IMG/VR virus record: IMGVR_UViG_3300047371_000046 | Coordinates: 1 to 43,772 of that record | Length of the DNA stretch: 43,772 nucleotides | Direction: 5' to 3' (one strand) | From: a virus | Shown here: positions 30,169-43,772 of the stretch, in pieces | How positions within the stretch are numbered: position 1 is the first letter of the stretch | Layout of the letters: each line of letters opens with the position of its first letter | Position numbers and translations under genes: made by a program | Notes under the pieces: generated by a model | Told to the model about the DNA's origin: nothing | Seen by the model: the letters and a program-made list of their open reading frames with translations, nothing else | Databases searched by the model: none

Positions 30169-30169
30169 A

Positions 30170-30198
30170 ATTATACCTTATATGTAGGGGGTTGTCAA
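30170..30198 (-). promoter_or_regulatory. Sigma70 promoter overlapping a start codon
   Basis: The minus strand has TTGACA (30198-30193), a 17-bp spacer and TATAAT (30175-30170), a perfect consensus. The expected +1, near 30163, falls just inside the gene that starts at 30168. Confidence 0.7.
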
Positions 30199-30202
30199 GT
30201 GG

Positions 30203-30758: not shown

Positions 30759-30759
30759 T

Positions 30760-31385: not shown

Positions 31386-31395
31386 ATCAATATTC

Positions 31396-31587: not shown

Positions 31588-31820
31588 GACTTAGCCTTAA
31601 CAACTTTATTGTTCTTGAATTCAGTACCAACTGGACCGACCAACTTACCGACCAACCAGAAGTCTTCTGCTTGCAATTTAGAAACGTCGTTAGAGTAACC
31701 TTCTTGAACGAAGTCTGGACCTAACTCGTTGTAGTTGTTAAGGAACTGAACAGCAGCTTCGACAGTGTCGAAAGTCTGTGCATGGTGATTGTTTGACATT
31801 TTGGGTTTTGCGTAGAACAT
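31584..31820 (-). CDS. Hypothetical protein, first gene after an early promoter
   Basis: The 78-residue protein ('AQTFDTVEAAVQFLNNYNEL') has no family I recognise. It is preceded by GAGAGAGA 8 nt from ATG and lies at the head of the operon that runs through MazG-like and the metallopeptidase. Confidence 0.65.
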   Translation of the reverse strand: MFYAKPKMSNNHHAQTFDTVEAAVQFLNNYNELGPDFVQEGYSNDVSKLQAEDFWLVGKLVGPVGTEFKNNKVVKAKS

Positions 31821-31855
31821 AATTTAAATCTCTCTCTTCATTAGTTTATGTAGCC

Positions 31856-31884
31856 ATTGTACCTGTTTTTGAAACGTTTGTCAA
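31856..31884 (-). promoter_or_regulatory. Early sigma70 promoter (shared module)
   Basis: TTGACA (31884-31879), 17-bp spacer, TACAAT (31861-31856), followed by GGCTACATAAAC. An A/T-rich stretch (run of 8 A on the minus strand near 31900) lies upstream like an UP element. Confidence 0.85.
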
Positions 31885-31893
31885 GGGCTTTGC

Positions 31894-32055
31894 TTAATTT
31901 TTTTTAGCAATTGCATGTAAATATTCACGTTTCAGGAACCACTTGTATTTTGCAAAGTAATCCTTTGCCTTGTAGTCTGGACGTTTACCTGTGTAGAGTT
32001 CAACCTCATCACAGTGCTCGAACCACATTAGATCACACCAACGTCTAAAAGTCAT
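31894..32055 (-). CDS. Small conserved phage protein
   Basis: From ATG 32055 it has 53 residues, starting MTFRRWCDLMWFEHCDEVEL and including 'YFAKYKWFLKREYLH'. I recognise the 'W-L-MW-EHCDEV' plus 'YF-KYKW-L-REY' pattern from T4-like marine phages, where the function is unknown. The ATG overlaps the upstream stop region (TAATATG); a longer frame would lie inside the preceding gene. Confidence 0.7.
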   Translation of the reverse strand: MTFRRWCDLMWFEHCDEVELYTGKRPDYKAKDYFAKYKWFLKREYLHAIAKKN

Positions 32056-32056
32056 A

Positions 32057-32440
32057 TTATGCCACCAACTGATAAGGTTTGTTGAACTGTCCGACGTTGA
32101 TGTCGATGTAGTGACTTCTGAAGAAATAGTCAGTCGCGCTGTCGTCTTCACAGAAGAAGTCAGGCCCTTCCATAGCAGCCTTTAACTCAGTTAAGAACGC
32201 AACAACTTCTTCGTTGTCGTAGTTTTCAGCAATCCAGTACGGATTGACCTGAACGTAGTCACGAGGACCGTACTCACTGACAGGTAACGCTCCGATGATA
32301 TCGAGAGCACCACTCTTAATGTTACACACCAAAATGCTGTGATGACGAATGGCAAGAGTGCCTTTCATGTTGTACTTCTTGAGGACCGCTTTGATCGCGG
32401 GGGTTAATTTCTTTTTATCTTCTTGACTTACATATGCCAT
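32057..32440 (-). CDS. Conserved phage/plasmid protein of unknown function
   Basis: From ATG 32440 it has 127 residues (MAYVSQEDKKKLTPAIKAVL). The GAGAGA ribosome site would lie inside the gene if the earlier ATG were used, so the later one is chosen. 'MKGTLAIRHHSILVCNIKSG', 'YVQVNPYWI' and the C-terminal 'HYIDINVGQFNKPY' match a widespread protein family of phages and plasmids whose role is unknown. It is the first gene after the promoter at 32473-32500. Confidence 0.75.
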   Translation of the reverse strand: MAYVSQEDKKKLTPAIKAVLKKYNMKGTLAIRHHSILVCNIKSGALDIIGALPVSEYGPRDYVQVNPYWIAENYDNEEVVAFLTELKAAMEGPDFFCEDDSATDYFFRSHYIDINVGQFNKPYQLVA

Positions 32441-32472
32441 AACAAATTTCTCTCTCATTAATTTATGTAGCT

Positions 32473-32500
32473 ATTATACCAAATTCTGAATAATAGTCAA
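32473..32500 (-). promoter_or_regulatory. Early sigma70 promoter (shared module)
   Basis: TTGACT (32500-32495), 16-bp spacer, TATAAT (32478-32473), followed by AGCTACATAAATTAATGAGAGAG, which supplies the ribosome site of the next gene. Confidence 0.85.
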
Positions 32501-32511
32501 CACTTTTTTAG

Positions 32512-32694
32512 CTATTTCTTAGACCGATTTGATATAAGGGTATTCCAAAAAGTTCTTAACCAACCACCCTCTTCCCACATCAATGGTATGCGCTCTCCCA
32601 GTTCTTTCTCTTCTTCCATGTGTAGGTTGACGTATAACAGCAAAGCGAGGAACCCAAACAAACCAAAACCGATTATGTCGTAAACCAGTTCCAT
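32512..32694 (-). CDS. Small membrane protein
   Basis: From ATG 32694, overlapping the upstream stop as TAATG, the 60-residue protein has one transmembrane helix ('IIGFGLFGFLALLLYVNL', about 6-24) followed by an acidic then basic cytoplasmic-type tail ('MEEEKELGERIP', 'NRSKK'). No family recognised. It is coupled to the secreted or anchored protein encoded just upstream, so the pair may act together at the inner membrane. Confidence 0.65.
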   Translation of the reverse strand: MELVYDIIGFGLFGFLALLLYVNLHMEEEKELGERIPLMWEEGGWLRTFWNTLISNRSKK

Positions 32695-32894
32695 TACTTC
32701 ACCCACACATGGTTGTATTTCGTAGGAAGAACTTCACACGTGTAGCTATCGTTCTCAGCATAGTTGATAACCTTGACACACTCTCCAGTCATATTACTAA
32801 CATGAACATCGGGCATATCAATAACAGCAGTACAATAAACAAGGACAAGGGATACAGCAACAAGACTAAAAACAGTTTCAGACAAACCTTTCAT
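32694..32894 (-). CDS. Small exported or membrane-anchored protein with two cysteines
   Basis: The 66-residue protein opens with a signal-like helix ('SLVAVSLVLVYCTAVI') and continues with 'DMPDVHVSNMTGECVKVINY', 'SYTCEVLPTKYNHVWVK'. The two cysteines in the outer part could form a disulphide in the periplasm. The 'TGECVKV-N' and 'C--LP-KY-H-WVK' motifs look conserved, but I cannot name the family. It follows the promoter at 32927-32955. Confidence 0.65.
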   Translation of the reverse strand: MKGLSETVFSLVAVSLVLVYCTAVIDMPDVHVSNMTGECVKVINYAENDSYTCEVLPTKYNHVWVK

Positions 32895-32926
32895 AAATCA
32901 TTCCTCTTCTCAATTTCAATACAAGT

Positions 32927-32955
32927 ATTATAGATGTTTTGATAACAAAAGTCAA
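32927..32955 (-). promoter_or_regulatory. Early sigma70 promoter
   Basis: TTGACT (32955-32950), 17-bp spacer, TATAAT (32932-32927). The AAGTGTTGACT context is shared with the promoter at 32473, but the TAGCTACATAAA downstream block is absent. Confidence 0.8.
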
Positions 32956-32976
32956 CACTTTTCTTAGACCAATTTG

Positions 32977-33168
32977 TTATAAAACAATCCTTTCATATAA
33001 CGGATCTTCTTCCAGAACTTCGAGCAACATCTCCAAACGATTCCTATTCTTGACTAGAGGTTCCTTTAGATAATCAGGCAGTTCTTCATAATTATCATCT
33101 TCCATTAAGTAGAGGACTCTCTCCAAATCTTTAGTTAACTCATCGTGTGCTTCCATTATTTCATTCAT
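32977..33168 (-). CDS. Hypothetical small acidic helical protein
   Basis: The 63-residue protein is acidic and helical ('DELTKDLERVLYLMEDDNYEELPDYL'), with AAGGA 6 nt upstream of the ATG. It starts 9 nt after the metallopeptidase gene. No family recognised. Confidence 0.62.
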   Translation of the reverse strand: MNEIMEAHDELTKDLERVLYLMEDDNYEELPDYLKEPLVKNRNRLEMLLEVLEEDPLYERIVL

Positions 33169-33177
33169 TTGAATTCC

Positions 33178-33804
33178 TTATGCGACAATTTTTATAGGAG
33201 CACGTTGACAAGCTTTCAACCATGCTTCAGGTGATTTGATGATAGGTCTGGAAACTCGTAACTTTTTTTCACGGAAACATTTCTTCAACGCCTTAGCTTC
33301 CTCGCGGCCTAGAAATCTTGAGACCAATCGAATCAGGCACTCACGGAATCGGTAATCATGTTTACTAAATCCAGCAGCATGTGCGAGTTCATGTAAGACA
33401 ACGTACTTGTTCATGCCACTCTCACTCAATCGAATTAGTTCCCTATAGCAGACTCCGGATAAAGAGTTCGATCTCATCTTTTCTATCCGGACAGTCTTAC
33501 ATGCAGATCTCAGTCCAATCGCTGGATCATTTTTATGATTGAAATTCTCCCACAATTTAGATTTTAGTACACGTTTTGCAAACGTCCGACACTCTTTTAA
33601 TGTGAGTTCTTTTGTTACGTGAGGGTAGTTGGCTTCGAATTTCCATTCTGCATTATAAGTCTTGCTCCTCTCAGAATCTTTCCATCCATGAGAATTCTTT
33701 CGAACTGCATACTGATAATACTTGTATGCGATTTCTTCATCCATCACTTTGATAGCATCACTGTAGTAGTGACGGTATTTTTCATTCCAAACTCGATAAC
33801 CCAT
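33178..33804 (-). CDS. HExxH zinc metallopeptidase (SprT-like)
   Basis: The 208-residue protein has 'MNKYVVLHELAHAAGFSKHDYRFRECLIRLVSRFLG', where HELAH is the zinc site and the His in 'KHDYRF' is placed to be the third ligand, as in SprT-like/phage HELAH proteins. The N-terminal half is basic and aromatic. Ten or so cysteine and basic residues near the C-terminus do not form a clear zinc ribbon. Early expression and small size suggest action on a host or regulatory protein. It is the second HExxH protein in the window, unrelated in sequence to the one at 30267. Confidence 0.78.
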   Translation of the reverse strand: MGYRVWNEKYRHYYSDAIKVMDEEIAYKYYQYAVRKNSHGWKDSERSKTYNAEWKFEANYPHVTKELTLKECRTFAKRVLKSKLWENFNHKNDPAIGLRSACKTVRIEKMRSNSLSGVCYRELIRLSESGMNKYVVLHELAHAAGFSKHDYRFRECLIRLVSRFLGREEAKALKKCFREKKLRVSRPIIKSPEAWLKACQRAPIKIVA

Positions 33805-33816
33805 AAATCTCTCTCT

Positions 33817-34011
33817 CTAAATTATATCAAAGGACATTGTGTGCATTATGCGTCTTCCCTTCGAGGAAGTTACACTTTTATCACCCGACCACATGTCTAT
33901 AACGTGGCCACATGTAGTCACCATCTCATCTTCATTAGACGTTAAGATTTCGAAGTCTCTAACTATCTCTTGATTAGTGGTAATCGTTAATCCAATGCAT
34001 CTGATCTTCAT
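33817..34011 (-). CDS. Hypothetical protein
   Basis: The 64-residue protein ('MKIRCIGLTITTNQEIVRDF', 'SSKGRRIMHTMSFD') has GGAAGAGAA before ATG and is the first gene after the promoter at 34041-34068. It may be a small beta-rich protein; no family recognised. Confidence 0.6.
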   Translation of the reverse strand: MKIRCIGLTITTNQEIVRDFEILTSNEDEMVTTCGHVIDMWSGDKSVTSSKGRRIMHTMSFDII

Positions 34012-34040
34012 TTCTCTTCCTTCTTTGACTTTATGTAGCT

Positions 34041-34068
34041 ATTATACCACAGTGAGTATTAGAGTCAA
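34041..34068 (-). promoter_or_regulatory. Early sigma70 promoter (shared module)
   Basis: TTGACT (34068-34063), 16-bp spacer, TATAAT (34046-34041), then AGCTACATAAAG. It lies 5 nt after the stop of the histone-like-tail gene. Confidence 0.83.
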
Positions 34069-34072
34069 GGGC

Positions 34073-34423
34073 CTATGTGACCTTTTTTCTCTTAGAAGGC
34101 GTCTTTTTCTTGACCGGAGTTTTCTTTTTGGTCACGGCAGGTTTTTTGGCTGCGACAGTTTTACGCGGCTTCCTTTTGGGTTTGACCGCAGTTTTCTTCG
34201 GCATCACAAATTCTTTTCGAAGGAACTCATTCACAGAAAGACCGCAGTTTCTCAACTCCTTTTGGAAACGAGTGATATCTTCCATCCACCACCCGTGTGG
34301 AGTTTCTAAGAACTGACCGTAGTGGTCCATGATTTCATTAGCGAGTCGGTTGCACTCTTCGGTGTCCTTGTCGTAAAGGTACCGGACCTTTCGGTCATAA
34401 TTCAGTTTAACGATCTTAGGCAT
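34073..34423 (-). CDS. Protein with histone H1-like Lys/Pro/Ala tail
   Basis: Of 116 residues, the first 72 form a mixed domain ('DRKVRYLYDKDTEECNRLAN', 'HGWWMEDITRFQKELRNCGLSVNEFLRKEF'), which resembles small conserved phage domains. Residues 75-116 are a repetitive basic tail of Lys/Pro/Ala/Thr ('KKPAVTKKKTPVKKKTPSK'), as in histone H1 and AlgP-like proteins. A tail like this binds DNA nonspecifically. The protein may compact host or phage DNA or target the N-domain to the nucleoid; that is inference. Confidence 0.7.
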   Translation of the reverse strand: MPKIVKLNYDRKVRYLYDKDTEECNRLANEIMDHYGQFLETPHGWWMEDITRFQKELRNCGLSVNEFLRKEFVMPKKTAVKPKRKPRKTVAAKKPAVTKKKTPVKKKTPSKRKKVT

Positions 34424-34432
34424 TGTCTCTCC

Positions 34433-34654
34433 CTAGATTAGTTTGTAGACTTTCTTCATGGTGTACTCGCGAGCAGACGCAAACGGTGCCTCGAACCAAT
34501 CTGAGGAACCCATCACTTGAGGAGCAATACCATACTTCAAATATGCATTGACCAACTCAGCAACGTTGTTCGATTCGCACACAGGGCGCATCTCGTGTTC
34601 ATCGTAAAGACGAATCTCAGAGCCGTCTTCAGTACAAGAAATATAATCTATCAT
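34433..34654 (-). CDS. Hypothetical protein
   Basis: The 73-residue protein ('MIDYISCTEDGSEIRLYDEH') is acidic and starts in an ATGA overlap with the upstream gene. No family recognised; cotranscribed from the promoter at 35147. Confidence 0.6.
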   Translation of the reverse strand: MIDYISCTEDGSEIRLYDEHEMRPVCESNNVAELVNAYLKYGIAPQVMGSSDWFEAPFASAREYTMKKVYKLI

Positions 34655-34863
34655 GCTACTTCTCCAAAAAATATACCAATGGGTGAACCGTTAGGACTAC
34701 GGTATCCAAGCTCATGAATATCATCAACTCGAACCTCTTCACGGTAACCGTCTTCCCATTTTATTTCGACACTGTCGCGACCAACTTGACGATCGATTAG
34801 ACCGTGTGCGATGGGGTACATGGCACCCCAGTTACCTTCGACTTTCTGACCGATTAAATTCAT
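34651..34863 (-). CDS. Small SH3-like protein, unknown role
   Basis: The 70-residue protein has a beta-barrel-like pattern ('MYPIAHGLIDRQVGRDSVEIKWEDGYREEVRVDDIHELG'), as in Tudor/KOW/SH3-like folds. GGAGGTGC and an ATGA overlap with the previous stop mark the start. The fold is a guess from pattern. Confidence 0.62.
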   Translation of the reverse strand: MNLIGQKVEGNWGAMYPIAHGLIDRQVGRDSVEIKWEDGYREEVRVDDIHELGYRSPNGSPIGIFFGEVA

Positions 34864-35114
34864 GCGGCACCTCCAATAAATGCATAACGAGGATTCTTAC
34901 AAAACATTCCGATCTCATCGAAACCTAGGATACAGAAACCATCTAAAGGATCGGTACCCGCCTCATACTCAACCAGTTCGAAACCGGTACGGAAAGTTTT
35001 AACGTCTTTGATGTCTACTGGGATAACTTTCATGGCGACATCGTACTCTTCCTGTGTTAGGAAGGTAGCGTCTTCGTTGGTTTCTGTGTTGTCTGTCCAG
35101 TTCTCATTAGTCAT
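34860..35114 (-). CDS. Hypothetical protein, first gene after an early promoter
   Basis: From ATG 35114 (MTNENWTDNTETNEDATFLT, 84 aa) the conserved leader supplies GAGAG as ribosome site; the earlier in-frame ATG would place this site inside the gene. 'AMKVIPVDIKDVKTFRTGFE' and 'GFCILGFDEIGMFCKNPRYAF' suggest a small mixed domain. No family recognised. Confidence 0.62.
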   Translation of the reverse strand: MTNENWTDNTETNEDATFLTQEEYDVAMKVIPVDIKDVKTFRTGFELVEYEAGTDPLDGFCILGFDEIGMFCKNPRYAFIGGAA

Positions 35115-35146
35115 AATCAACTCTCTATTCATTAATTTATGTAGCT

Positions 35147-35175
35147 ATTATAGCATATTAAGAGATAAAACGCAA
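35147..35175 (-). promoter_or_regulatory. Early sigma70 promoter (shared module)
   Basis: TTGCGT (35175-35170), 17-bp spacer, TATAAT (35152-35147), then AGCTACATAAATTAATGAATAGAGAG. It has the weakest -35 element of the set. Confidence 0.75.
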
Positions 35176-35208
35176 GGGCTTTAGCCAAAATAAATGGCTT
35201 ATTTTTAG

Positions 35209-35246
35209 AACTTTTTGGCATAAGGATATAACTTTTTCGTATAAGG
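35209..35246 (+). repeat. Two imperfect 17-bp direct repeats
   Basis: AACTTTTTGGCATAAGG (35209-35225) and AACTTTTTCGTATAAGG (35230-35246) recur at 21-bp spacing in the gap between an early promoter and a terminator. Two helical turns of spacing suggests a protein-binding site, but no role is shown. Confidence 0.5.
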
Positions 35247-35250
35247 GACG

Positions 35251-35313
35251 AAAAAAAATAGAGGAGTCGTCCACGTACCTATCAGTCGGAATCTTCGAAA
35301 GACCAACTCCCCT
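35251..35313 (-). terminator. Probable terminator after the CxxCxGxG gene
   Basis: On the minus strand AGGGGAGTTG (35313-35304) pairs with CGACTCCTCT (35269-35260), a 10-bp stem with two wobbles and a large loop holding a smaller TCTT/AAGA hairpin, followed by T-A and eight U. It ends 9 nt downstream of the coding stop at 35322. Confidence 0.6.
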
Positions 35314-35321
35314 CCAAACTA

Positions 35322-35783
35322 TTAACTGGCGAATCCAGTACCGTCACACATATAACAGTCTTCATCTTCGTAGTCATCGTATCCATATCCCGAACACTCT
35401 TGGCATGTCTCATCGAGATCATCTTCAGAGTAGTCGAACATATCCTCAATGTTCTCCATTACCATCAACTGAGGATTGAAGGTCACCATCTTAGTGGTCA
35501 TCTCCACGATGCGATCGATGGCAACATGGAACAGGTCGTTCTCATACTTACCTTCATAGAGTCGACCCGTCGTGTAGGGTAGGACGTACTCAAACAACTC
35601 CTTATCGATCGCGCTTTTCTCGCGTAGGAACTTTAGGGCACCGGACGTATTGTTACCCATACCGTTGTTATAGAAATCATATTGCAGACGACCAGCCGCG
35701 CGGATCATCTCACCAGCGACAGTGTCACACTTGCCTTCGTTAGGTACCAACTCTGCAAAAATTCGTTTAAACGTAGCGCTCAT
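35322..35783 (-). CDS. Phage protein with C-terminal DnaJ-type CxxCxGxG zinc motif
   Basis: The 153-residue protein has a helical N-terminus ('GEMIRAAGRLQYDFYNNGMGNNTSGALKFL'), and an acidic C-terminus with 'TCQECSGYGYDDYEDEDCYMCDGTGF'. The two C-x-x-C-x-G-x-G repeats are those of DnaJ-type zinc fingers. The N-terminal domain is similar to small proteins in T4-like phages annotated only as hypothetical. It could act as a zinc-binding chaperone or DNA-binding accessory. A TAAGGAG site precedes the ATG, and a terminator follows the stop. Confidence 0.72.
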   Translation of the reverse strand: MSATFKRIFAELVPNEGKCDTVAGEMIRAAGRLQYDFYNNGMGNNTSGALKFLREKSAIDKELFEYVLPYTTGRLYEGKYENDLFHVAIDRIVEMTTKMVTFNPQLMVMENIEDMFDYSEDDLDETCQECSGYGYDDYEDEDCYMCDGTGFAS

Positions 35784-35793
35784 AATATACTCC

Positions 35794-35901
35794 TTAGTAG
35801 ACGTAGGGTTCGACTGGGTGACCAGCCGCGAGCATCATTCCAGAATAAATGAAACCCCAAATCACAACTTGACCAAAAACAAACTCAGTTAACTGACTCA
35901 T
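35794..35901 (-). CDS. 35-residue membrane micro-protein
   Basis: ATG 35901 overlaps the upstream stop as TAATG and reads MSQLTEFVFGQVVIWGFIYS, then 'GMMLAAGHPVEPYVY' to TAA at 35794. The central 18 residues form a single hydrophobic helix. Coupling to a neighbour and a following ribosome site (TAAGGAG) support a real gene. No family recognised. Confidence 0.6.
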   Translation of the reverse strand: MSQLTEFVFGQVVIWGFIYSGMMLAAGHPVEPYVY

Positions 35902-36089
35902 TACGCATACTCCTCTTGATACTCATCGTAAGTTAAATACATGTCGGTAGTAGGATTAAGATAGGCACCTTCACGTGCATCATAATACAAAGCACGTTGA
36001 CCATCATAAAAGAATGGACCCTCAAGACCTTCACGTTCAACGTACTGAGCGCGAAACTCTGGAGTGATGTTTAAAACTCGATAACCCAT
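35901..36089 (-). CDS. Hypothetical protein, first gene after a dyad-containing promoter
   Basis: From ATG 36089 (MGYRVLNITPEFRAQYVERE, 62 aa), with GAGG 5 nt upstream. It contains 'FFYDGQRALYYDAREGAYLN' and is Tyr-rich. No family recognised. It heads a three-gene unit with the micro-protein and the CxxCxGxG protein. Confidence 0.62.
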   Translation of the reverse strand: MGYRVLNITPEFRAQYVEREGLEGPFFYDGQRALYYDAREGAYLNPTTDMYLTYDEYQEEYA

Positions 36090-36121
36090 AAAAACCTCTT
36101 TCAACTCGACTTTATGTAGCT

Positions 36122-36151
36122 ATTGTACCACATGTTTCTACAACATGTCAA
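36122..36151 (-). promoter_or_regulatory. Early sigma70 promoter with operator-like dyad
   Basis: TTGACA (36151-36146), 18-bp spacer, TACAAT (36127-36122), then AGCTACATAAAG. The inverted repeat ACATGTT-TCTAC-AACATGT (36130-36148) fills the spacer and matches the dyad at 41719-41737. Confidence 0.82.
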
Positions 36152-36182
36152 GGCATTATGCTAAATTATTTTTTGGTAATAC

Positions 36183-36707
36183 TTACAGTTCGTCGAGCAT
36201 ATCGATGAAATCTTCAATATGCATATATCTCAAAATGATACCTTTCTTTGCACATCTCTCGATCCACTTATCGGCATCAACTTGTATATTTGTTAACTTA
36301 CGACGACCTTTAATACCTAGCGATAATAGATTATGATGATCGATTAAGATAATAACATGGTCTCCATAACAACCTGCTTCAGCGTTACAGAAATGATGGT
36401 CTAACTTGTCGGTGTGGGAACCGAAATCACTTAACTGCTTGAGTTCAAGCCAGTAAGGAGTATCGTCTAATGCGACTCTGAAGTCACCCTTTCTATTAGA
36501 GTTACCTTTATAGTCGGTGTATCGAGGTTGCTTTTCATAAGGGATGAGATGAGATTTTAACACGTCTTCGAAACGATCTTCAAATTCCCTACCTGCTTTA
36601 GATCCTCGTCCACCAGCAGTTAGTGAAGCGGCACTTGATCTCGCCACCACCCACTGCATGGTTTCTAGATTTAATACGGGTGTTTCTTGCTGTGTTGATA
36701 CTTTCAT
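36183..36707 (-). CDS. PD-(D/E)XK-type endonuclease in the modification island
   Basis: The 174-residue protein has a restriction-nuclease-like core: 'GREFEDRFEDVL' (39-50), a helix with acidic residues ahead of the core, 'KGDFRVAL' with D75 and 'YWLELKQL' with E88-x-K90, which fit the D-(x)n-E-x-K active site. Similar short phage proteins act as Type II-like endonucleases or recombination nucleases. It lies 88 nt downstream of the CmoA-like gene, with AGGTAATATA before ATG. Its neighbours suggest that it cleaves DNA lacking, or carrying, the island's base modification; which of these is not shown. Confidence 0.75.
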   Translation of the reverse strand: MKVSTQQETPVLNLETMQWVVARSSAASLTAGGRGSKAGREFEDRFEDVLKSHLIPYEKQPRYTDYKGNSNRKGDFRVALDDTPYWLELKQLSDFGSHTDKLDHHFCNAEAGCYGDHVIILIDHHNLLSLGIKGRRKLTNIQVDADKWIERCAKKGIILRYMHIEDFIDMLDEL

Positions 36708-36795
36708 ATTATATTACCTTTGGTTATGGGTTATGAGAACACTGGCATATCGCACGGGCCCTCATTTAGAAAATAGTTAAATTGTTTTTGTCGTA
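36708..36795. other. 88-bp gap inside the modification island
   Basis: The gap holds a GGGCCC palindrome near 36760 and the ribosome site of the nuclease gene. No -35/-10 pair or stable terminator is evident, so the nuclease is probably read from the promoter at 38682. Confidence 0.5.
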
Positions 36796-37518
36796 TTATT
36801 TGATAGCAATAGCACCTACGAAAAGATGGTTCTGCCAGAAGGGTTGAATCTTGGTAGAACAGAACCCAGCAGTCATACAGAGTGAGTGCAGTTCATTCCA
36901 AGTTGAACACTTCATCATTGAACGTAGCTCTCGTTCTTTTGATAACAAGTCATCAGCATCGAAGTTCTTAGACTTGTGATCATAGAATTGGAATGTCATG
37001 ATTTCCTGAAGACGAGCATCTCTCGCCATAGTTTTCTCTGCAAATATGAATGCGCCACCTGAGTTCAGACCGTGATAGATTTTCTTTACTAAGTCACGTC
37101 GTGAACGCGGCGGCATGAACTGTAGAGTGAACAGAGAAGTAATAAGAGAACAATTCGCGAATGATGCATTACGCACGTCCATGTTATGAAAGTCTACATC
37201 ACCCAGACCCTCATTATCAATCTGCTTGTGACGAGCATTCATATCATCAACAAATCCGGATGCGTACTCAATACCAGAGTAATGTGCTAGAGGTGCGAAT
37301 CGATTGTTCTGTTTCATCATTTCGTAGATAGTCTTACCCGTCGAACAACCGATGTCGACAACGTCGGTTAGATCCTCGACGAAGTATTCCGACAATCTGA
37401 CAATATCTGAATGTAGATTATTGTAACCACGAATCGAGTTTTCGATGTGATTATCGAATCCTTCCTCACGGTGGGCGAAACTAAAATCTGGTTTGTGGTA
37501 ATTCTCTCTATCTTTCAT
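36796..37518 (-). CDS. cmoA: CmoA-like carboxy-S-adenosylmethionine (Cx-SAM) synthase
   Basis: The 240-residue protein follows E. coli CmoA (247 aa) along its length: 'FDNHIENSIRGYNNL' (21-35), motif I 'VVDIGCSTGKTIYEM' (53-67), 'VDFHNMDVRNASFANCSLIT' (108-127), 'FTLQFMPPRSRRDLVKKIYH' (130-149) and 'NSGGAFIFAEKTMARDA' (152-168), where CmoA has V-L-N-F-T-L-Q-F and N-P-G-G-A-L-V-L-S-E-K. CmoA makes Cx-SAM from SAM and prephenate for wobble-uridine modification with CmoB. No CmoB is in this window. The gene overlaps the cytosine methyltransferase by 11 nt, so its product is probably used by that enzyme. R197/R199 in 'KERELR' lie near the Cx-SAM-binding Arg of CmoA, but the exact alignment is unresolved. 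Confidence 0.85.
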   Translation of the reverse strand: MKDRENYHKPDFSFAHREEGFDNHIENSIRGYNNLHSDIVRLSEYFVEDLTDVVDIGCSTGKTIYEMMKQNNRFAPLAHYSGIEYASGFVDDMNARHKQIDNEGLGDVDFHNMDVRNASFANCSLITSLFTLQFMPPRSRRDLVKKIYHGLNSGGAFIFAEKTMARDARLQEIMTFQFYDHKSKNFDADDLLSKERELRSMMKCSTWNELHSLCMTAGFCSTKIQPFWQNHLFVGAIAIK

Positions 37519-38656
37519 TGTACACCTTCAATACGTTCTCATAGACTGACTCAGCAATCTGTTTCATCATCAATGGTGGAACCATACGACCGATACGCTC
37601 TGCCTTCTGATTCCATTTACCCGTCAGTTTAAAGTCATCGGGAAGTGACATTATACGCTTTAATTCCCCTAGTGTCAACTTGCGAGACTCAGACCAGTGA
37701 AATGCACCAGCGGTTGTATCCCCGTTACCCATTGCAGTCAATGTAGGTGCAGGCGCCTCTAGAGACACACGCTTGAGATTGAAGTGATGACCCTTGGGAT
37801 GATAATCACCACCAGTCAAAACTTTATCGGGAAACTTAGGCATTAGAGATCCAGTGTCTTTCCAGTACGCGGTTCTCTCAAACTTCTCCGTCAGATACTT
37901 AACTTCTTCTTCGTCATACTCCAGACCGACCAAAGCATCTTTGAGTGGTATGGCAGTTCTTGCTGGTTCTGGAAACAAGTGATTCATGGTCAAGAAGTTT
38001 AGTCCCACTTCATCCGCAACGTCTTGGCGTACTGCAATAAAAATGACACGGGTACGCGTCTGTGATACTCCATAATAACGAGAATCCATGACTTCGGATA
38101 CCACTTCATACCCAATGTTCTCGAACTCATTGAGGATACGATTGTAGTACTCTTTTGCCTCACCGATCGTGAGACCTTTAACATTCTCTGCAACGATGAC
38201 TTTGGGTTGAATCTCGTTTGCCACACGTAGGAACTCAAAGAACAGATCTTCGATGTTCTCTACAATCTTACCATCGCTGTAGGACTTAGTCTGTCCCCAC
38301 CCGTCAGAGTGTTTACCGTCAGATGAATGAGACAGTTTACCCGCGACAGAGAATGCAGAGCATGGAGGCGAACCGTCGAGGATATCCAACTCGCCCTTCT
38401 CCAGACCAACAAGGTCCAGAAAGTCTTGACCTGTTAGTTCTTTGATGTCGTTCGGGACGATAGGTGTGTCGGGATAGTTTTCTTTGTAGGTGACTCGTGC
38501 CTCTTCTACAAACTCATTGATGGCGAGAATGTCCGCACCCGCAAGGCGGTAACCTGTGGAAGATCCACCGCCCCCCGCGAACGTAGAAACGACTTTGAAC
38601 TTTTTCTGGGATGCCGCGTCATAGACATCTTGTAAATTGTACGGGTTATAACTCAT
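37508..38656 (-). CDS. Cytosine-C5 DNA methyltransferase, probable Cx-SAM-using carboxymethyltransferase
   Basis: The 382-residue protein has all main C5-methyltransferase motifs: I 'FAGGGGSSTGYRLAG' (26-40), IV 'DGSPPCSAFSVAG' with catalytic C99, VI 'VAENVKG' (155-161), VIII 'QTRTRVIFIA' (199-208), a target-recognition region (about 215-300), then 'APAPTLTAMGNGD' and 'SLPDDFKLTG'. Motif X reads 'RIGRMVPPLM' (354-363), with Arg357 where the family has Asn in G-N-A-V-P-P. This pocket residue contacts cofactor; an engineered family member with a basic residue is reported to use Cx-SAM. The CmoA-like gene overlaps it by 11 nt. Together these suggest 5-carboxymethylcytosine as product. A consensus sigma70 promoter drives it. 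Confidence 0.9.
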   Translation of the reverse strand: MSYNPYNLQDVYDAASQKKFKVVSTFAGGGGSSTGYRLAGADILAINEFVEEARVTYKENYPDTPIVPNDIKELTGQDFLDLVGLEKGELDILDGSPPCSAFSVAGKLSHSSDGKHSDGWGQTKSYSDGKIVENIEDLFFEFLRVANEIQPKVIVAENVKGLTIGEAKEYYNRILNEFENIGYEVVSEVMDSRYYGVSQTRTRVIFIAVRQDVADEVGLNFLTMNHLFPEPARTAIPLKDALVGLEYDEEEVKYLTEKFERTAYWKDTGSLMPKFPDKVLTGGDYHPKGHHFNLKRVSLEAPAPTLTAMGNGDTTAGAFHWSESRKLTLGELKRIMSLPDDFKLTGKWNQKAERIGRMVPPLMMKQIAESVYENVLKVYNER

Positions 38657-38681
38657 AATATACCTTCATTTATTAACAGAC

Positions 38682-38710
38682 ATTATACAGTATATAGCAT
38701 TGTCTGTCAA
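38682..38710 (-). promoter_or_regulatory. Consensus sigma70 promoter of the modification genes
   Basis: TTGACA (38710-38705), 17-bp spacer, TATAAT (38687-38682), a perfect match. The TGA stop of the PP-loop gene (38707-38709) is embedded in the -35 element. Confidence 0.9.
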
Positions 38711-39573
38711 GTGATAAAATCAGATAGGTCGGACACAAAGGTTTGTTGATAGTGATCGCGACATAGGTCCATGACCCTGTTCCGACGTTTCCAGTTGATC
38801 TCAGTATCGAGCAACAATGACTCGAACAGTTTGTCTATTTGAGAACCCAACTGTAAATTGATGTGAGGCTTTACATTACCAAAGAGTTTTTCGATCTCGT
38901 ACTCTTCGCGTATGATGTTCTTCTGGTGTGGCGTGTTCAGTTCTTGCCATGAGAACTGCATAAGATAGTCACGGACTCGTTGGTCACCCCACGGGGCAAC
39001 ATGGATCTTACCGTGCATCTCCGCAACTTTGTTGTGGGTCGCAATACCAGCACAGTGTCCATTGAGATACGCTTCACGGAACTCATTCCAGTTGACGCGT
39101 TTGTCTCCACTTTCTTTACACCACTTCACATAGTTACGCTTCTTTTTAAAAGAAGAGTACCGTTGGGTTGCTTTACGAGACGCACCAAAGAATGCATCTG
39201 CGACCCATCCAGTGACCGAATACTTTTCGACCATGGCGTCATAAACATAAAGAAAAGGATATGCGGCTGCCTCGAACTCAGACTTTTTACGACAACCTAG
39301 TTCGACCAGTCGTTGGAAGTCTTGTTTAATGTTGGCGGTTGGTATAATGACCGGAGTGAATTCCCACCCCATAATATCTGCTACGTCACGTGCCTTGATA
39401 AAATCATAGGACTCATGACTATCCAGAGTGAAACTATATGCGTGGACCTTGCGTCCAGCATCCTGAGCACTGATACCTACAGATATGGAATCGACACCGC
39501 CGGACAGTAGAAGTCCGACAGTGCCGTGGTTGACATGAGTGTCAATGTGGTCAGTAATAAAGTCTCGTATCAT
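38707..39573 (-). CDS. Asparagine-synthase-like PP-loop ATP-pyrophosphatase
   Basis: The 288-residue protein carries the PP-loop 'LLLSGGVDSISVGISAQD' (21-38; S-G-G-V-D-S) and 'KVHAYSFTLDSHESYDFIKA', as in the synthase domain of asparagine synthase. There is no N-terminal glutaminase domain, so ammonia or another amine would have to be supplied directly. These enzymes adenylate a carboxylate and attack it with an amine. In this island a carboxymethylated base would be such a carboxylate, so amidation or conjugation is a reasonable guess; it is not shown. QueC-, ThiI- or DndC-like roles were considered, but the surrounding sequence fits asparagine synthase better. Its start overlaps the preceding nuclease gene as ATGA. 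Confidence 0.78.
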   Translation of the reverse strand: MIRDFITDHIDTHVNHGTVGLLLSGGVDSISVGISAQDAGRKVHAYSFTLDSHESYDFIKARDVADIMGWEFTPVIIPTANIKQDFQRLVELGCRKKSEFEAAAYPFLYVYDAMVEKYSVTGWVADAFFGASRKATQRYSSFKKKRNYVKWCKESGDKRVNWNEFREAYLNGHCAGIATHNKVAEMHGKIHVAPWGDQRVRDYLMQFSWQELNTPHQKNIIREEYEIEKLFGNVKPHINLQLGSQIDKLFESLLLDTEINWKRRNRVMDLCRDHYQQTFVSDLSDFIT

Positions 39574-40955
39574 GCAGCTTTATTTAGAAGAGATGCCTTG
39601 TACTCATTCAAGTCCATAGAACCCATCTCCTTATTGTATACAGCACGAACCATTGCAAGGTTACTGTATACAGTAAGACCGCCGTTAGTGTGTGCGACTA
39701 TGTGTGCAGCATGTGCGTCTTGCATATTTAACTTTCGACCATCAATAGCACACTTGAAGTTTTGCTCAGACAACTTTGCTTCACGATCTACAATAGAGAA
39801 GTTTCGACGAGGGTCCCTGATAGTAATCAAGGACTCTAGGTCAGGCATCTCTCGTATTAGATATGTGATTGCCCTTGTCACCTTCTTAGTATCCCAAGGT
39901 GCAGCAATGTACTTTGTATACATCGTAGGAACGTTGTAACCAGAATTGCCGGGTACTAGTTCTTTCTTAAACGGACCTTCTTGGTTTTTCAGTGCTTGGT
40001 TTGCTCGATTATATGCAAGGAAAAAATCTTCATAGTCATCAATACGGAAATTGTCGTAAGTGTCTTGAAGGTAGAAGTACAAGTAAGACAAAACCTTAGC
40101 ATCATGCTGACTCAAACCCTTTCCGTTAAAGCGAGGCTTTCTATATACAGCAATCTTGCGTAAGAACTCGCAGTGGTCGTAGACATTATCAGCAATCTTA
40201 GAGATCGCTTTATTGTCAATATCACTATCCTCGTACATATCCTTTAACTCTTTATCGTGAGAACCACCCAGCAGTCCAGTTGGGTGTACAAGGTAACGAT
40301 GTACGAGACGTGCCAAGAAGTGATCTTGCATCAAACGGTTGTTATCAAAGCTGAGGTAGGAATAGTTTGCTTTCTTTTCATCAGCGCTCAGATTAAACTT
40401 GAATAGGTTGTGAAATTCATTCTCGATTCCTGAGACGCTTCTCACAGTCTCGCGGACAAAGTTAGCGATAGGAGTATCACCATAGGAGTTCAGCATCTCG
40501 ATAAAGTTAACGTCTGTAGTCTTGTTTAGAGTACGGAAGATGTGCCCTTTAGTCTCAGAGTCCAACTCATTATATATCGCAAAGGATAGTTCGATATCCA
40601 GAAACGTATTCTGCTCTTCGATAGGTAGGTCAGAGAAAAAAGAACCTTTCACCTTGAATCTATTGTTTAGGTAGTCCCACAAATTTCGCTTGCGGTGACC
40701 TCCATCGATGGACTCAAAATCGTGCTTTACGGTACTTGCGATAGCACGTCGAGCTTTTCGATTAAGCTTCATAACGGTTATCTTACCGATATCATAGCCA
40801 TCGATAAGGGTTTCGATGATACCAATACCCTTCTCATTATTCTTAGAAAAGACTGGAAGTCGTTGACCGACTGGTTGACAGTCGATAGACCAGTACATAG
40901 TGTCTTTGAACTTGCGGATTGTTACGGATGTGTTTTCATATAAAGATGTAGCCAT
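39570..40955 (-). CDS. DUF262/ParB-like plus HNH nuclease (GmrSD-like)
   Basis: The 461-residue protein has an N-terminal DUF262-like domain ('YWSIDCQPVGQRLPVFSKNN', and 'FESIDGGHRKRNLWDYLNNRF' with DGGHRKR, 84-90, where the family has D-G-Q-Q/H-R) that binds or hydrolyses nucleotides. The C-terminal 67 residues form an HNH nuclease: C402, then 'DAHAAHIVAHTNGGLTVYSN' with H415/H418/H422 and a downstream Asn, and 'NKEMG'. GmrSD, BrxU and SspE are defence nucleases of the same plan (DUF262 + DUF1524-type HNH) that respond to DNA modification. It has its own promoter and is coupled to the PP-loop gene. A phage version could cut unmodified host or rival DNA, or recycle nucleotides. Confidence 0.8.
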   Translation of the reverse strand: MATSLYENTSVTIRKFKDTMYWSIDCQPVGQRLPVFSKNNEKGIGIIETLIDGYDIGKITVMKLNRKARRAIASTVKHDFESIDGGHRKRNLWDYLNNRFKVKGSFFSDLPIEEQNTFLDIELSFAIYNELDSETKGHIFRTLNKTTDVNFIEMLNSYGDTPIANFVRETVRSVSGIENEFHNLFKFNLSADEKKANYSYLSFDNNRLMQDHFLARLVHRYLVHPTGLLGGSHDKELKDMYEDSDIDNKAISKIADNVYDHCEFLRKIAVYRKPRFNGKGLSQHDAKVLSYLYFYLQDTYDNFRIDDYEDFFLAYNRANQALKNQEGPFKKELVPGNSGYNVPTMYTKYIAAPWDTKKVTRAITYLIREMPDLESLITIRDPRRNFSIVDREAKLSEQNFKCAIDGRKLNMQDAHAAHIVAHTNGGLTVYSNLAMVRAVYNKEMGSMDLNEYKASLLNKAA

Positions 40956-41022
40956 TGTATTGCCCTCCTAGGGACTTAGTTGATGGGCACGGACAAAAGC
41001 GTACTGACCCAATTCATTATGA

Positions 41023-41052
41023 ATGATATCACTATTTGATATCACCTGTCAA
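41023..41052 (-). promoter_or_regulatory. Sigma70 promoter of DUF262-HNH/PP-loop genes with paired palindromes
   Basis: TTGACA (41052-41047), 18-bp spacer, TATCAT (41028-41023). Two TGATATCA palindromes (41024-41031 and 41037-41044), 5 bp apart, cover the spacer and -10. This looks like a repressor operator, unique in the window. The TGA stop of the upstream gene lies within the -35. Confidence 0.75.
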
Positions 41053-41297
41053 GTGTTTTGCTCAATTATTTCCTTAATTTGTTTCTTGTTTAACTTCTTA
41101 AACTTACGTCCTTTAGTAGACCAAGATTTCTTAGGCGTATTAAAGAGTTGGAAAACTCCAGTACGACGTGGTACGTAACCGACAAGATCTGTACCTTTAC
41201 TCACGTAGATGTGGTTGGTGATATTTTCCTCACCCCAATCGGTTATCTCTTCGCGCCACAGGAAGTGACACGCTTCTTCAAGACTTATGATATTCAT
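41049..41297 (-). CDS. Hypothetical protein
   Basis: From ATG 41297 (MNIISLEEACHFLWREEITD, 82 aa), with GGAG 7 nt upstream and overlap with the preceding stop region (TAATATG). The C-terminus is basic ('KSWSTKGRKFKKLNKKQIKE'), possibly nucleic-acid binding. No family recognised. Confidence 0.65.
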   Translation of the reverse strand: MNIISLEEACHFLWREEITDWGEENITNHIYVSKGTDLVGYVPRRTGVFQLFNTPKKSWSTKGRKFKKLNKKQIKEIIEQNT

Positions 41298-41298
41298 A

Positions 41299-41679
41299 TT
41301 AAAACTCCATCGCAAGTTGTTGACCAGCAGAAATGTTGACGACCTTCATCATCTGCATCATGTTGCTGTTAAGATAGTGACGGTCCATTGGATTAGGACC
41401 AGTCGCAATGCTGTAGTAGTCAGCGTTACGTAGTGGATCACCCGTAGGCAAGTCACGGTGAACAAACATGACCTCACCTTCTTGAACACCTTTACCATTT
41501 GTAAACTGAATAATCTCACCTACTTCAGCGTAGTCAGAACGATTAGTGAACTCACGCGCACTAGAAACATACAGCGCAGCCGGGTTTGGATAAGACTCCA
41601 TATGATCATATGCGTCTTGGCGAGTTTCGAACGGACCTGCCGCTCTCATGTTTTTGTAGTTCTTCATAACGTAGTACAT
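41299..41679 (-). CDS. Hypothetical protein, first gene after a dyad-containing promoter
   Basis: From ATG 41679 (MYYVMKNYKNMRAAGPFETR, 126 aa); GAGAGAG lies 6 nt upstream, and the frame continues 2 codons further only to a TTG. 'FETRQDAYDHMESYPNPAALYVSSAREF' suggests a small alpha/beta domain, with several Met-rich stretches near the C-terminus. No family recognised. Confidence 0.65.
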   Translation of the reverse strand: MYYVMKNYKNMRAAGPFETRQDAYDHMESYPNPAALYVSSAREFTNRSDYAEVGEIIQFTNGKGVQEGEVMFVHRDLPTGDPLRNADYYSIATGPNPMDRHYLNSNMMQMMKVVNISAGQQLAMEF

Positions 41680-41710
41680 AATCAACTCTCTCTATCAATT
41701 CAATGTAAGC

Positions 41711-41740
41711 ATTATACCACATGTTTTTGCAACATGTCAA
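41711..41740 (-). promoter_or_regulatory. Early sigma70 promoter with operator-like dyad
   Basis: TTGACA (41740-41735), 18-bp spacer, TATAAT (41716-41711). ACATGTT-TTTGC-AACATGT (41719-41737) is a 7-bp perfect inverted repeat, and the upstream flank (GGCATTATGCTAAATTA) is shared with 36152 onwards. Confidence 0.85.
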
Positions 41741-41759
41741 GGCATTATGCTAAATTAAT

Positions 41760-42005
41760 TTACCAAACTTCATCGCCAGTGGTGCGGAATCGCAAAAGGG
41801 GGCGTAACTCTTGACCCAACTCACGAGTAGTCATGTTGTCTGCCTGACACAAACAAGTTTGGCTGCTGTGGAAGTCACGGAAAAACTGTTCATCGAGATC
41901 AGACTCGACGCAATCTTCAAGACTCCAGTCTGCGAACAAATCGTCTAGTATCATCTGGTTCTCTTCGCTCATGTATCGTGTGGGAGAGTTGTATTGCAGT
42001 TCCAT
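41760..42005 (-). CDS. Hypothetical acidic protein
   Basis: The 81-residue protein is acidic ('EENQMILDDLFADWSLEDCVESDLDEQFFRDF') with a basic short tail region. No family recognised. It is a monocistronic unit under the promoter at 42040. Confidence 0.62.
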   Translation of the reverse strand: MELQYNSPTRYMSEENQMILDDLFADWSLEDCVESDLDEQFFRDFHSSQTCLCQADNMTTRELGQELRPLLRFRTTGDEVW

Positions 42006-42039
42006 CTCTATTTCCTTATTAACTCGACTTTATGTAGCT

Positions 42040-42067
42040 ATTATACCAAATCTTAAAAGAAAGTCAA
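42040..42067 (-). promoter_or_regulatory. Early sigma70 promoter (shared module)
   Basis: TTGACT (42067-42062), 16-bp spacer, TATAAT (42045-42040), then AGCTACATAAAGTCGAGTT, the same initial transcribed region as at 36122. Confidence 0.82.
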
Positions 42068-42103
42068 CACTTAAGCGTGACTAATTTTAGGTAATAAGTC
42101 ACA

Positions 42104-42400
42104 CTATCTCCTCATTGACGCAAGGTCTTTCATCTGCTGTTCATCAATCACGGGGATTGCATTGGACTTGTGCATAGTTCCGATACCCTTGACTAGGGTT
42201 CCGGTGTAGTTCATTATTTCTTTTTTTTCGGTACTGAAAGTACCCGAATCGTGAGATTTATAAACTGGAGTCTCCCTTCGATAAGGTTCACTCTTTACTT
42301 CCATAGGCTGGAATGTGGGGGTAGGTTTCTTCTTGGTAGACCAAGCATTGTACGTCTTTTTTCTACCAGTGGTAGTGTGTCGCATTGAACCGTGTATCAT
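42104..42400 (-). CDS. Small conserved phage protein
   Basis: From ATG 42400 (98 aa; a later ATG in 'MRHTTTGRKKTYN' is also possible), with GAGAG upstream. The pattern 'KKTYNAWSTKKKPTP', 'YRRETPVYKS' and 'NYTGTLVKGIGTMHKSNAIPVI' is one I know from marine T4-like phages, function unknown. The N-terminal half is basic. Confidence 0.7.
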   Translation of the reverse strand: MIHGSMRHTTTGRKKTYNAWSTKKKPTPTFQPMEVKSEPYRRETPVYKSHDSGTFSTEKKEIMNYTGTLVKGIGTMHKSNAIPVIDEQQMKDLASMRR

Positions 42401-42438
42401 AATAACTCTCAAGTTGTTTCATAAAATATACAATGTGT

Positions 42439-42468
42439 ATTATACGACACATTCTAGGGTGCTGTCAA
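42439..42468 (-). promoter_or_regulatory. Early sigma70 promoter
   Basis: TTGACA (42468-42463), 18-bp spacer, TATAAT (42444-42439). It lacks the TAGCTACATAAA block. Confidence 0.83.
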
Positions 42469-42567
42469 GTGTACAATCCTTTTACATTCATCAAATCTTC
42501 GAATACTAGTAAGTACACCGAACAGGTCATCATCTGCCTTCTGGGCAAACCCTAACCAAAGTATCAA
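42454..42567 (-). CDS. Possible micro-protein without an ATG start
   Basis: This minus-strand frame encodes 'ILWLGFAQKADDDLFG' and 'LTSIRRFDECKRIVHLTAP' to TAG at 42454, with an upstream hydrophobic segment ('VWVLRILLILWLGF'). The composition (hydrophobic start, then amphipathic helix) looks coding. The only near-start codons are TTG at 42567 (37 aa) and ATA at the preceding gene's TAA, where an ATGA-type overlap would be expected. It may be a real gene or a remnant that lost its start. Confidence 0.4.
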   Translation of the reverse strand: MILWLGFAQKADDDLFGVLTSIRRFDECKRIVHLTAP

Positions 42568-42590
42568 TAAGATACGTAGTACCCAAACGC

Positions 42591-43139
42591 TTATCTCTCT
42601 AGGAACCACTCAGGAACCTCGCGGTTAGTCCACTTGGCAAAATACTTTTTCTCTTCACGATAATACTTGCGGTACCCTTCGGTAACGACAGTCTCCTTAC
42701 AGTGGTCTGGCATACACTGAGGCATGACGGTCTCTGGTCCAACTTGGTTGATGTTACGGGGAGAGAACCAAAGAAGTCCAGATAGTTTTTCATAGGTTGC
42801 ATGGACTCGGCCATATCGGTGAGTGTACTCTTTTGCACATGCGACAAAATGGTCGTACAACCATCGGTAATTCTTGTTGTTCTCACGACACCATATAGCA
42901 GATGGGTGGTTTTTGTGTGCAACTTTGTATAGCATATTCTCACGTGCTTCGCCATCGACTATATAATGGTCTACCATACGTTTTCCGGACTTGGAAGGTC
43001 GACGTTCGACAGACCCATCAAGAACCCGATGCGCAGTCGAGAGTAGCTGACCGTACTCGGTAACCATCTTGACTACATGCTTGTCACACATCATCTGTGC
43101 AGATATCACTGGATCATCATCTAATCTAAAAATATTCAT
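42591..43139 (-). CDS. Conserved marine phage protein
   Basis: I recognise the N-terminus of this 182-residue protein ('MNIFRLDDDPVISAQMMCDKHVVKMVTEYGQLLSTAHR') from marine phages; it faintly recalls pyrimidine-dimer glycosylase-like proteins ('D-D-P---AQ---DKHVVKM--E--Q-L'), but I see no catalytic proof. The middle has 'HKNHPSAIWCRENNKNYRWLYDHF', the end is basic. It is the first minus-strand early gene after the promoter at 43167, so it may be expressed very early. Confidence 0.72.
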   Translation of the reverse strand: MNIFRLDDDPVISAQMMCDKHVVKMVTEYGQLLSTAHRVLDGSVERRPSKSGKRMVDHYIVDGEARENMLYKVAHKNHPSAIWCRENNKNYRWLYDHFVACAKEYTHRYGRVHATYEKLSGLLWFSPRNINQVGPETVMPQCMPDHCKETVVTEGYRKYYREEKKYFAKWTNREVPEWFLER

Positions 43140-43166
43140 GTACTATATCCCCCATTTGGTTAGGAT

Positions 43167-43195
43167 ATTGTACAGTATAAATTAGGTTCTGTCAA
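43167..43195 (-). promoter_or_regulatory. Early sigma70 promoter
   Basis: TTGACA (43195-43190), 17-bp spacer, TACAAT (43172-43167). A run of seven C on the plus strand directly abuts the -35. Confidence 0.83.
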
Positions 43196-43257
43196 CCCCC
43201 CCCTTGAAGATTTTTTTAACGTAGATGCAAATTTTGCCTATATGCGAACTTATTTAG

Positions 43258-43265
43258 TATAAATA
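43258..43265 (+). promoter_or_regulatory. T4-type late promoter almost abutting ATG
   Basis: TATAAATA ends 5 nt before the ATG at 43271, so the expected +1 is at or in the start codon, giving leaderless mRNA. No ribosome site is visible. The sequence before it is AT-rich. Confidence 0.7.
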
Positions 43266-43270
43266 AACGT

Positions 43271-43522
43271 ATGAAAGAATTATTTGATTTTGGTTTCACC
43301 GCAGTAGATGAGTCAGAACTCGAAGCGTTTCAAGCGTTAGAGACCGTATCTGATGCTGTTGATGAAGCTCAAACCCGTCTCGATAATCTATACAATGCGA
43401 TTCAACCGCTCTTGACTAACCTCAAAGCGAATCCTGAAAAGGAATATATACTATGGCCAAATCGTTTAGATAAGATCGAGGAATTCGAAACACACATTCA
43501 AAACATCTATAAGGGATCCTAA
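43271..43522 (+). CDS. Small conserved T4-like phage protein
   Basis: The 83-residue protein begins MKELFDFGFTAVDESELEAF and includes 'LYNAIQPLLTNLKANPEKEYILWPNRLDKIEEFETHI'. The 'LYNA--PLL-NL--NPEKEYI-WP-R--KI--F' pattern is known to me from marine T4-like phages, role unknown. It is mostly helical. The N-terminal 'FDFGF' segment is conserved enough that the ATG at 43271 is the likely start even though the late promoter abuts it. Confidence 0.75.
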   Translation: MKELFDFGFTAVDESELEAFQALETVSDAVDEAQTRLDNLYNAIQPLLTNLKANPEKEYILWPNRLDKIEEFETHIQNIYKGS

Positions 43523-43525
43523 CCA

Positions 43526-43772
43526 ATGTTTTTTACTACAAAAGGCGAGTCCATCTTGACCGATGGATCAAAACATAAACAAGTCCGTGGAACATTCAAA
43601 GAATGGATGGCTACGACAATGAATTCATATTTAAACGAAATTACCGTTAGAAACGGTAAGTATTTACGTCACTCATCTACAGAAATTAATATGTCTGAGG
43701 AGATGTTGTCACGTGGGGCGATGTTCGCAAACGCATTGACATCTCAAGGATATAAGAACATCTTATTTGTTG
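43526..43772 (+). CDS. Hypothetical protein, cut by window edge
   Basis: From ATG 43526 the frame is open to the end of the window, 82 codons: MFFTTKGESILTDGSKHKQV, 'GTFKEWMATTMNSYLNEITV', 'INMSEEMLSRGAMFANALTS'. No family recognised. It follows the preceding late gene by 3 nt and is probably cotranscribed. Confidence 0.65.
   Translation, partial: MFFTTKGESILTDGSKHKQVRGTFKEWMATTMNSYLNEITVRNGKYLRHSSTEINMSEEMLSRGAMFANALTSQGYKNILFV

Follow-up and report, generated by a model that had tools for sequence, protein, structure and literature searches.

The window analyzed here, a 43,772-base viral contig of a marine T4-like phage, carries on its minus strand an operon of two genes, P0001 and P0002, together with their promoter, a paired palindrome and a leader with two hairpins (Table 1). 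On the 3' side of P0002 lies a gene for a C5-cytosine DNA methyltransferase and then one for a second methyltransferase (a tRNA methyltransferase according to PHROG).

Table 1. Features of the nuclease operon and its upstream region in the window
Feature	Position	Strand	Remark
-35 element TTGACA	41047..41052	-	reaches into the stop codon of the ORF lying upstream (41049-41315)
Spacer of the sigma70 promoter, 18 bp	41046-41029	-	
Palindrome TGATATCA within the spacer	41037..41044	.	putative upstream operator half
Palindrome TGATATCA over the extended -10	41024..41031	.	putative downstream operator half
-10 element TATCAT, extended (TG before it)	41023..41028	-	
Leader hairpin 1: outer stem and 2-bp inner stem, with a 4x4 internal loop between them	40984..41011	-	stems covary across homologues
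Leader hairpin 2: Shine-Dalgarno sequence in loop and 3' arm	40962..40975	-	
P0001, 461 aa; N domain ParB/Srx-like, carrying the DGGHR motif; C-terminal domain HNH	39570..40955	-	BrxU/GmrSD-like predicted fold
P0002, 288 aa, PP-loop ATPase	38707..39573	-	Asn_synthase PF00733, weak QueC; 4-base overlap with P0001

With two input sequences, structure prediction for P0001 gave an unusable model (mean pLDDT 39.6); with 30, the mean pLDDT was 88.1. In the latter model, a ParB/Srx-like NTPase domain is followed by an HNH domain, the order that defines GmrSD/BrxU proteins, with a helical middle between them, and D84 and R88 of the DGGHR motif are invariant. ParB-like matches to the model fall within residues 1-162 and HNH matches within 379-461, while BrxU and SspE span both. 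The best PDB match was BrxU (Foldseek E 5.6e-4), the HNH of Cas9 and ParB/Noc coming next; by VIA, the comparison with BrxU gave Z 8.6 over 208 residues, barely above the level that the tool calls common, with an rmsd of 16.4 and a poor whole-chain superposition. BrxU/GmrSD proteins are described as combining a C-terminal HNH with a ParB/Srx-like N domain that carries a DGQQR-like motif (PMC8565348). P0001 differs from them in being phage-encoded, in its pairing with a PP-loop ATPase, in its leader RNA, and in giving no match to DUF262 or DUF1524, both of which were unlisted at E up to 10 in a search whose HMMER filters drop most matches above 0.1. Judged by its model, P0001 looks like a GmrSD-like nuclease, but because the DUF262/DUF1524 match is absent, we do not file it as GmrSD. 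Of the 75 homologous loci long enough to contain it, 18 have a PP-loop gene starting within 400 bp past the gene end and 25 have one anywhere in the locus; tblastn found no P0001 match in isolate phages. The P0001 copy is intact in the window, open but cut at the contig end in L049, and split into three ORFs in the 137-kb relative (L050, 6001-7386), through either decay or sequencing error.

The sequence-only reading had placed two 8-bp palindromes 5 bp apart over the core of a near-consensus promoter, and this was confirmed by their positions and by a promoter scan. The centers of the two TGATATCA copies are 13 bp apart, and the downstream copy supplies the extended -10, TATCAT being the second palindrome plus T. 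The promoter is among 14 that score at least 10/12 within 29000-43772. The further claim that no other early promoter here has these palindromes was right for TGATATCA in the window, where the third copy, at 17173, is unpaired; the pair recurs only when the search is carried to other contigs and genomes.

A different spacer dyad, ACATGTT-N5-AACATGT, is present in two other window promoters (41740 and 36151). It is also found in promoters 3673, 4363 and 8802 of a sister contig (L052), so that several early promoters of the phage group carry it, and together with promoter elements it was seen in 14 of the 80 viral contigs examined (of at least 119 stretches), 11 of which have TTGACATGTT, as in the window. 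Looser matches to this dyad numbered 27 against 8 for a reversed-pattern control in the 137-kb relative G001 and 23 against 9 in G003, and equaled the control in phage C48C1 (17 vs 17). In a related phage (L057, 8880), a promoter spacer contains a perfect 7-1-7 dyad, ATACACTTAGTGTAT, which is operator-like.

The exact site TGATATCA-N5-TGATATCA was surveyed in 45 viral stretches and in a genome collection of bacteria and a few archaea, from which 80 loci of at least 120 stretches were examined; HicA/HicB or RHH/PIN coding sequences within 800 bp on either strand were taken as toxin-antitoxin neighbors. Such neighbors were present at 61 of the 80 genome loci examined, 16 of them HicAB and 45 RHH/VapBC, and HicAB adjoins the site in 10 of the 45 viral loci, while the control with a 6-bp gap between the copies, which covers this one gap length in viral contigs, gave 0 of 21. 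These counts include near-duplicates: around the site L009 and L024 look alike, as do L010 and L027, and L005/L035 and L025/L029 are closely similar. Of the examined genome loci, 40 share one RHH-gene cluster, mostly of Sphingomonadales. The RHH seeds were moreover drawn from the same loci as those counted, and Pfam confirmed nine of the ten submitted neighbors (HicA_toxin, HicB, RHH_1, FitA-like_RHH, PSK_trans_fac, Arc, PIN), the tenth having no match. In the seed search, 33 of the 45 viral loci and 19 of the 80 examined genome loci had no toxin-antitoxin match; 22 of these 33 viral pairs lie under a mechanical ORF of at least 60 aa, and L043, which is among the 33, is followed at 39 bp by an Arc-type RHH gene that the seeds missed. 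The two viral loci counted as RHH/VapBC (L010 and L027) were caught by their own seed; the 45-aa ORF after their operator is RHH-like by eye, gave no Pfam match, and was not counted as confirmed.

The register of the site on its promoter was compared as well, requiring TTGACA with at most two mismatches, a spacer of 16-18 bp, and a TATCAT made of the second palindrome plus T. It was the same as in the window in 13 of 45 viral loci, 17 of the 80 genome loci examined, and none of the 21 controls. Toxin-antitoxin matches accompany 16 of these 17 genome loci, and 8 of the 13 viral loci are hicAB promoters with the hicA start 6-49 bp downstream; the other five are two of the window lineage, two alike with the 45-aa ORF, and one without a match. 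Because the same site and register recur at HicAB and RHH-VapBC genes, we conclude from this sequence comparison that the TGATATCA pair of the window is probably an RHH-antitoxin-type operator. In many Sphingomonadales loci (L133-L212, e.g., L153 and L166), the site, frequently in the form of an overlapping TGATATCATGATATGATATCA, precedes an RHH gene that is often followed by a PIN (VapC) gene, and this site is a candidate lineage-wide antitoxin operator. The TGATATCA word also occurs in cloning primers listed in PMC11302019.

Known systems resemble this arrangement to different degrees. For autoregulated hicAB promoters with an RHH-type HicB, exemplified by Yersinia pestis HicAB3 and Burkholderia pseudomallei HicAB, a palindromic operator over the -10 is described, bound by HicB tetramers with two RHH units (PMC11594946); the eight viral hicAB loci have the identical TGATATCA-N5-TGATATCA in the register of the window. 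Unlike a hicAB operon, the window operon encodes a GmrSD-like nuclease and a PP-loop protein, has no antitoxin or toxin gene, and belongs to a T4-like phage. The vapBC operons with a CopG/VapB-type (RHH) antitoxin share the same paired palindrome, but there the site belongs to the toxin-antitoxin operon, which is not so in the window. In YefM-YoeB, two palindromes over the promoter have their centers 12 bp apart, against 13 in the window, with the core TGTACA, and the antitoxin is said to have no canonical DNA-binding motif (PMC3920265).

The operator is present in the window, in L006, and in L007/L050/G001. Since L006 and the window share 99.985% identity over 6.8 kb, the window lineage amounts to two occurrences. 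L007/L050/G001 are about 95% identical to the window, and full identity of the site in such a relative is weak evidence because the stretch is short; in phage C48C1, the best site has two mismatches. A homologue search started from 30 aligned homologues gave at least 101 viral relatives, 80 of which were kept and 73 of which have more than 150 bp upstream. The pair was found in 2 of these 73 upstream regions, both of the window lineage, the next best having at least three mismatches, and this ruled out a TGATATCA operator conserved across the nuclease family. In L057, whose P0001 homologue has 61% protein identity, the leader is common with the window and the spacer is unrelated. Four sister contigs (L052-L055) have the same upstream DNA as the window up to the -35; past it come another promoter with the ACATGTT-N5-AACATGT spacer, another DGGHR-HNH gene (its product in L052 is 23% identical to P0001), and then P0002 at 97%. 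Therefore, promoter core and gene have been exchanged together, and the operator goes with its gene. In L052, the exchanged cassette occupies 4363-5992, with its breakpoint at the -35 and the PP-loop gene kept. The window DNA at 40400-41700 had no match among isolate phages.

On another reading, the operator would be a relic, captured by recombination from a HicAB/VapBC-type promoter and now part of a strong constitutive early promoter that meets no repressor. The promoter block does swap with the gene between close relatives, the site is not conserved in homologues, and the phage records searched yielded no RHH gene. A relic is harder to reconcile with two palindromes that are perfect both in G001, at 95% identity, and in the window lineage itself, and no toxin or antitoxin gene that might have come along was recognized beside the operator. 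On balance, we consider a relic unlikely.

For an RHH-antitoxin-type operator, a binding protein is needed, and the sequence-only reading had proposed a search for a phage or host regulator. On the phage side, the search gave none. The RHH_1 and HicB models had no match in eight phage records and the Arc model none in five; three home-made RHH profiles, run on the window, G001, G003, G006 and 38.8 kb of C48C1, had no hit below E 0.67, so that neither the window nor the 137-kb G001 has yielded an RHH gene. Nor does the operator drive an RHH antitoxin gene of its own, the genes downstream being P0001 and P0002. Since these searches of the phage records gave no RHH gene, a host antitoxin is the simplest candidate for the repressor, and the same site does adjoin RHH toxin-antitoxin genes elsewhere. 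The host itself is not indicated to be cyanobacterial, because searches of the window and four other records gave no photosystem reaction-center gene (Photo_RC); the nearest isolate record is phage C48C1 of the family Kyanoviridae, which covers 12% of 20000-43772 at 76% identity.

The phage could also supply the repressor. A divergent RHH protein, or one encoded in the missing part of the genome, would fit a window that is a 43.8-kb genome fragment; another DNA-binding protein could do the same, and so could P0001 itself, acting through its ParB/DndB-like domain. DndB autoregulates, P0001 has a ParB/Srx-like N domain, and the operator travels with the gene. The blank RHH_1, HicB and Arc searches and the home-made profiles nevertheless count against an RHH protein of the phage, and upstream of the 61%-identical P0001 homologue such a site is lacking. 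We regard a phage-encoded repressor, autoregulation by P0001 included, as improbable, and keep the host antitoxin as the leading candidate.

Chance might have produced the same picture, since TG-TATCAT serves well as an extended -10, and coincidence or a small duplication could have placed the other copy in the spacer. The single word TGATATCA is indeed common: three copies in the window compare with 1.26 expected, at least three occurred in 12 of 100 dinucleotide shuffles, and 3.1 are expected from its own sub-words. One other identical palindrome pair, TGTATACA, lies in the window 30 bp apart (39635 and 39665, inside P0001), and the TGATATCA pair is absent from homologues outside the window lineage. 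We also dropped dyad enrichment as evidence, because only one of the 79 distinct strong promoters collected from the phage group reached a score of at least 8, with 0.46 expected, and a dyad of such size is thus not unusual. Against coincidence, 300 first-order simulations gave, per window, 0.067 identical 8-bp palindrome pairs with starts 8-28 bp apart and 0.0067 at exactly 13 bp, values that include no requirement of a strong-promoter location, which makes the pair rarer still. Together with the agreement in sequence, gap and register with RHH toxin-antitoxin promoters and the empty 6-bp-gap control, this leaves an accidental origin as improbable as a repressor from the phage. Avoidance of the EcoRV word GATATC was tried separately and rejected (29 in the window vs 24.0 expected; 72 in G001 vs 67.5 expected).

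Two hairpins between the -10 and the start codon are common to 12 distinct leaders. Leaders of this kind stand before GmrSD-like phage nuclease genes in the window (40953-41022), L073-L083 and L094, and the first hairpin only was found in L423, L418, L435 and L428. In hairpin 1, the internal loop is usually GAGA/CAGT and is CAGT/CCGT in the window; at six of its eight pairs both bases change while pairing is maintained, and 96.9% of cells pair. Its covariation score was reached by 0 of 500 shuffles and by no slid version, while the number of pair types did not exceed that of the shuffles, 328 of 500 reaching the observed value. All 12 hand-aligned versions of hairpin 2 pair, with different pairs. 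Most of these leaders come from one clade, and the hairpins were partly chosen and aligned by eye. A pseudoknot of the hairpin 1 loop with the 3' arm of hairpin 2 gained no support (permutation fraction 0.22).

A covariance model trained on the 12 leaders gave 16 strong matches in 57 sources (including all of G001 and G003), each preceding a P0001 homologue, and 14 strong matches in the 80 homologue loci; the strong matches are the training sequences or their duplicates. Six weak matches (E 0.04 to 0.91; L423, L418, L422, L435, L436 and L428) lie just before homologues of 32-33% identity, and other weak matches were found elsewhere, three at E 0.13 plus four (E 0.16 to 0.64) in the 57-source search. 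By eye, the core NAGA-GC-N6-GC-C(A/C)GN is present in 6 of 22 distant upstream regions (L423, L418, L422, L435, L428 and L415), where the outer stems are quite different, and absent from the other 16. When five of these six were added to the 12 (L415, not being a model match, was left out), the 17 hairpins had a covariation score of 0.70; shuffles gave 0.27, with none of the 500 reaching the observed score, and slid versions gave at most 0.22; six pairs changed on both sides, a number reached by 25 of 500 shuffles. Rfam 15 gave for 40900-41100 only a spurious TLS-PK2 (E 2.7, other strand, below the gathering score) and for four relatives no match at E up to 1. The leader was also sought before other genes by a 14-base pattern, and among the 80 stretches listed, of at least 120, none was a full-length model match (best E 0.014, partial); the open-access literature searched held nothing to the point on such a leader. 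It appears from these alignments that the regulation common to the relatives lies in the leader RNA and not in the operator, and the leader, of which the sequence-only reading made no mention, is a candidate new regulatory RNA.

According to the above-described analysis, the two palindromes may act as one operator for a repressor of the RHH-antitoxin type (HicB or a CopG-type VapB) that shuts off the nuclease operon, a proposal to which we give even odds. The repressor, presumably a host antitoxin, would bind as a dimer of dimers, with one RHH dimer on each palindrome and 13 bp between them, and would thereby cover the spacer and the -10 and keep RNA polymerase off the early promoter. Lon is reported to degrade HicB (PMC10865869); repression could then fade when host gene expression stops, and the operon would be turned on late. 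In part of the nuclease family, a second layer may be added by leader hairpin 2, which contains the ribosome-binding site. The dedicated repression of the nuclease that had been suggested from the sequence thus has partial support only, since the site is confined to one lineage and its binding protein is only a candidate, and the suggested delay until phage DNA is modified gained none. In favor of dedicated repression, the site is like RHH-antitoxin promoters and the downstream gene models as a nuclease, and against it stand the few homologous upstream regions with the pair and the other spacer of the 61%-identical homologue.

The broadest version of this idea, which we offer as speculative and would not expect to hold in full, is that an early nuclease operon of a lytic phage has come under a toxin-antitoxin repressor of the host. 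The antitoxin, alone or together with its toxin, would occupy the phage promoter and leave it when infection upsets the toxin-antitoxin balance, and an undescribed leader RNA of the same operon family would control nuclease translation. A phage promoter under the control of a host antitoxin was not found in the open-access literature searched; if a host antitoxin does bind the operator, a phage gene would be under host toxin-antitoxin control. The leader RNA is tied to a nuclease family of at least 101 viral loci, in part of which the full leader was matched. If the whole proposal is true, the phage would sense the state of host defense through a host antitoxin on its own promoter.
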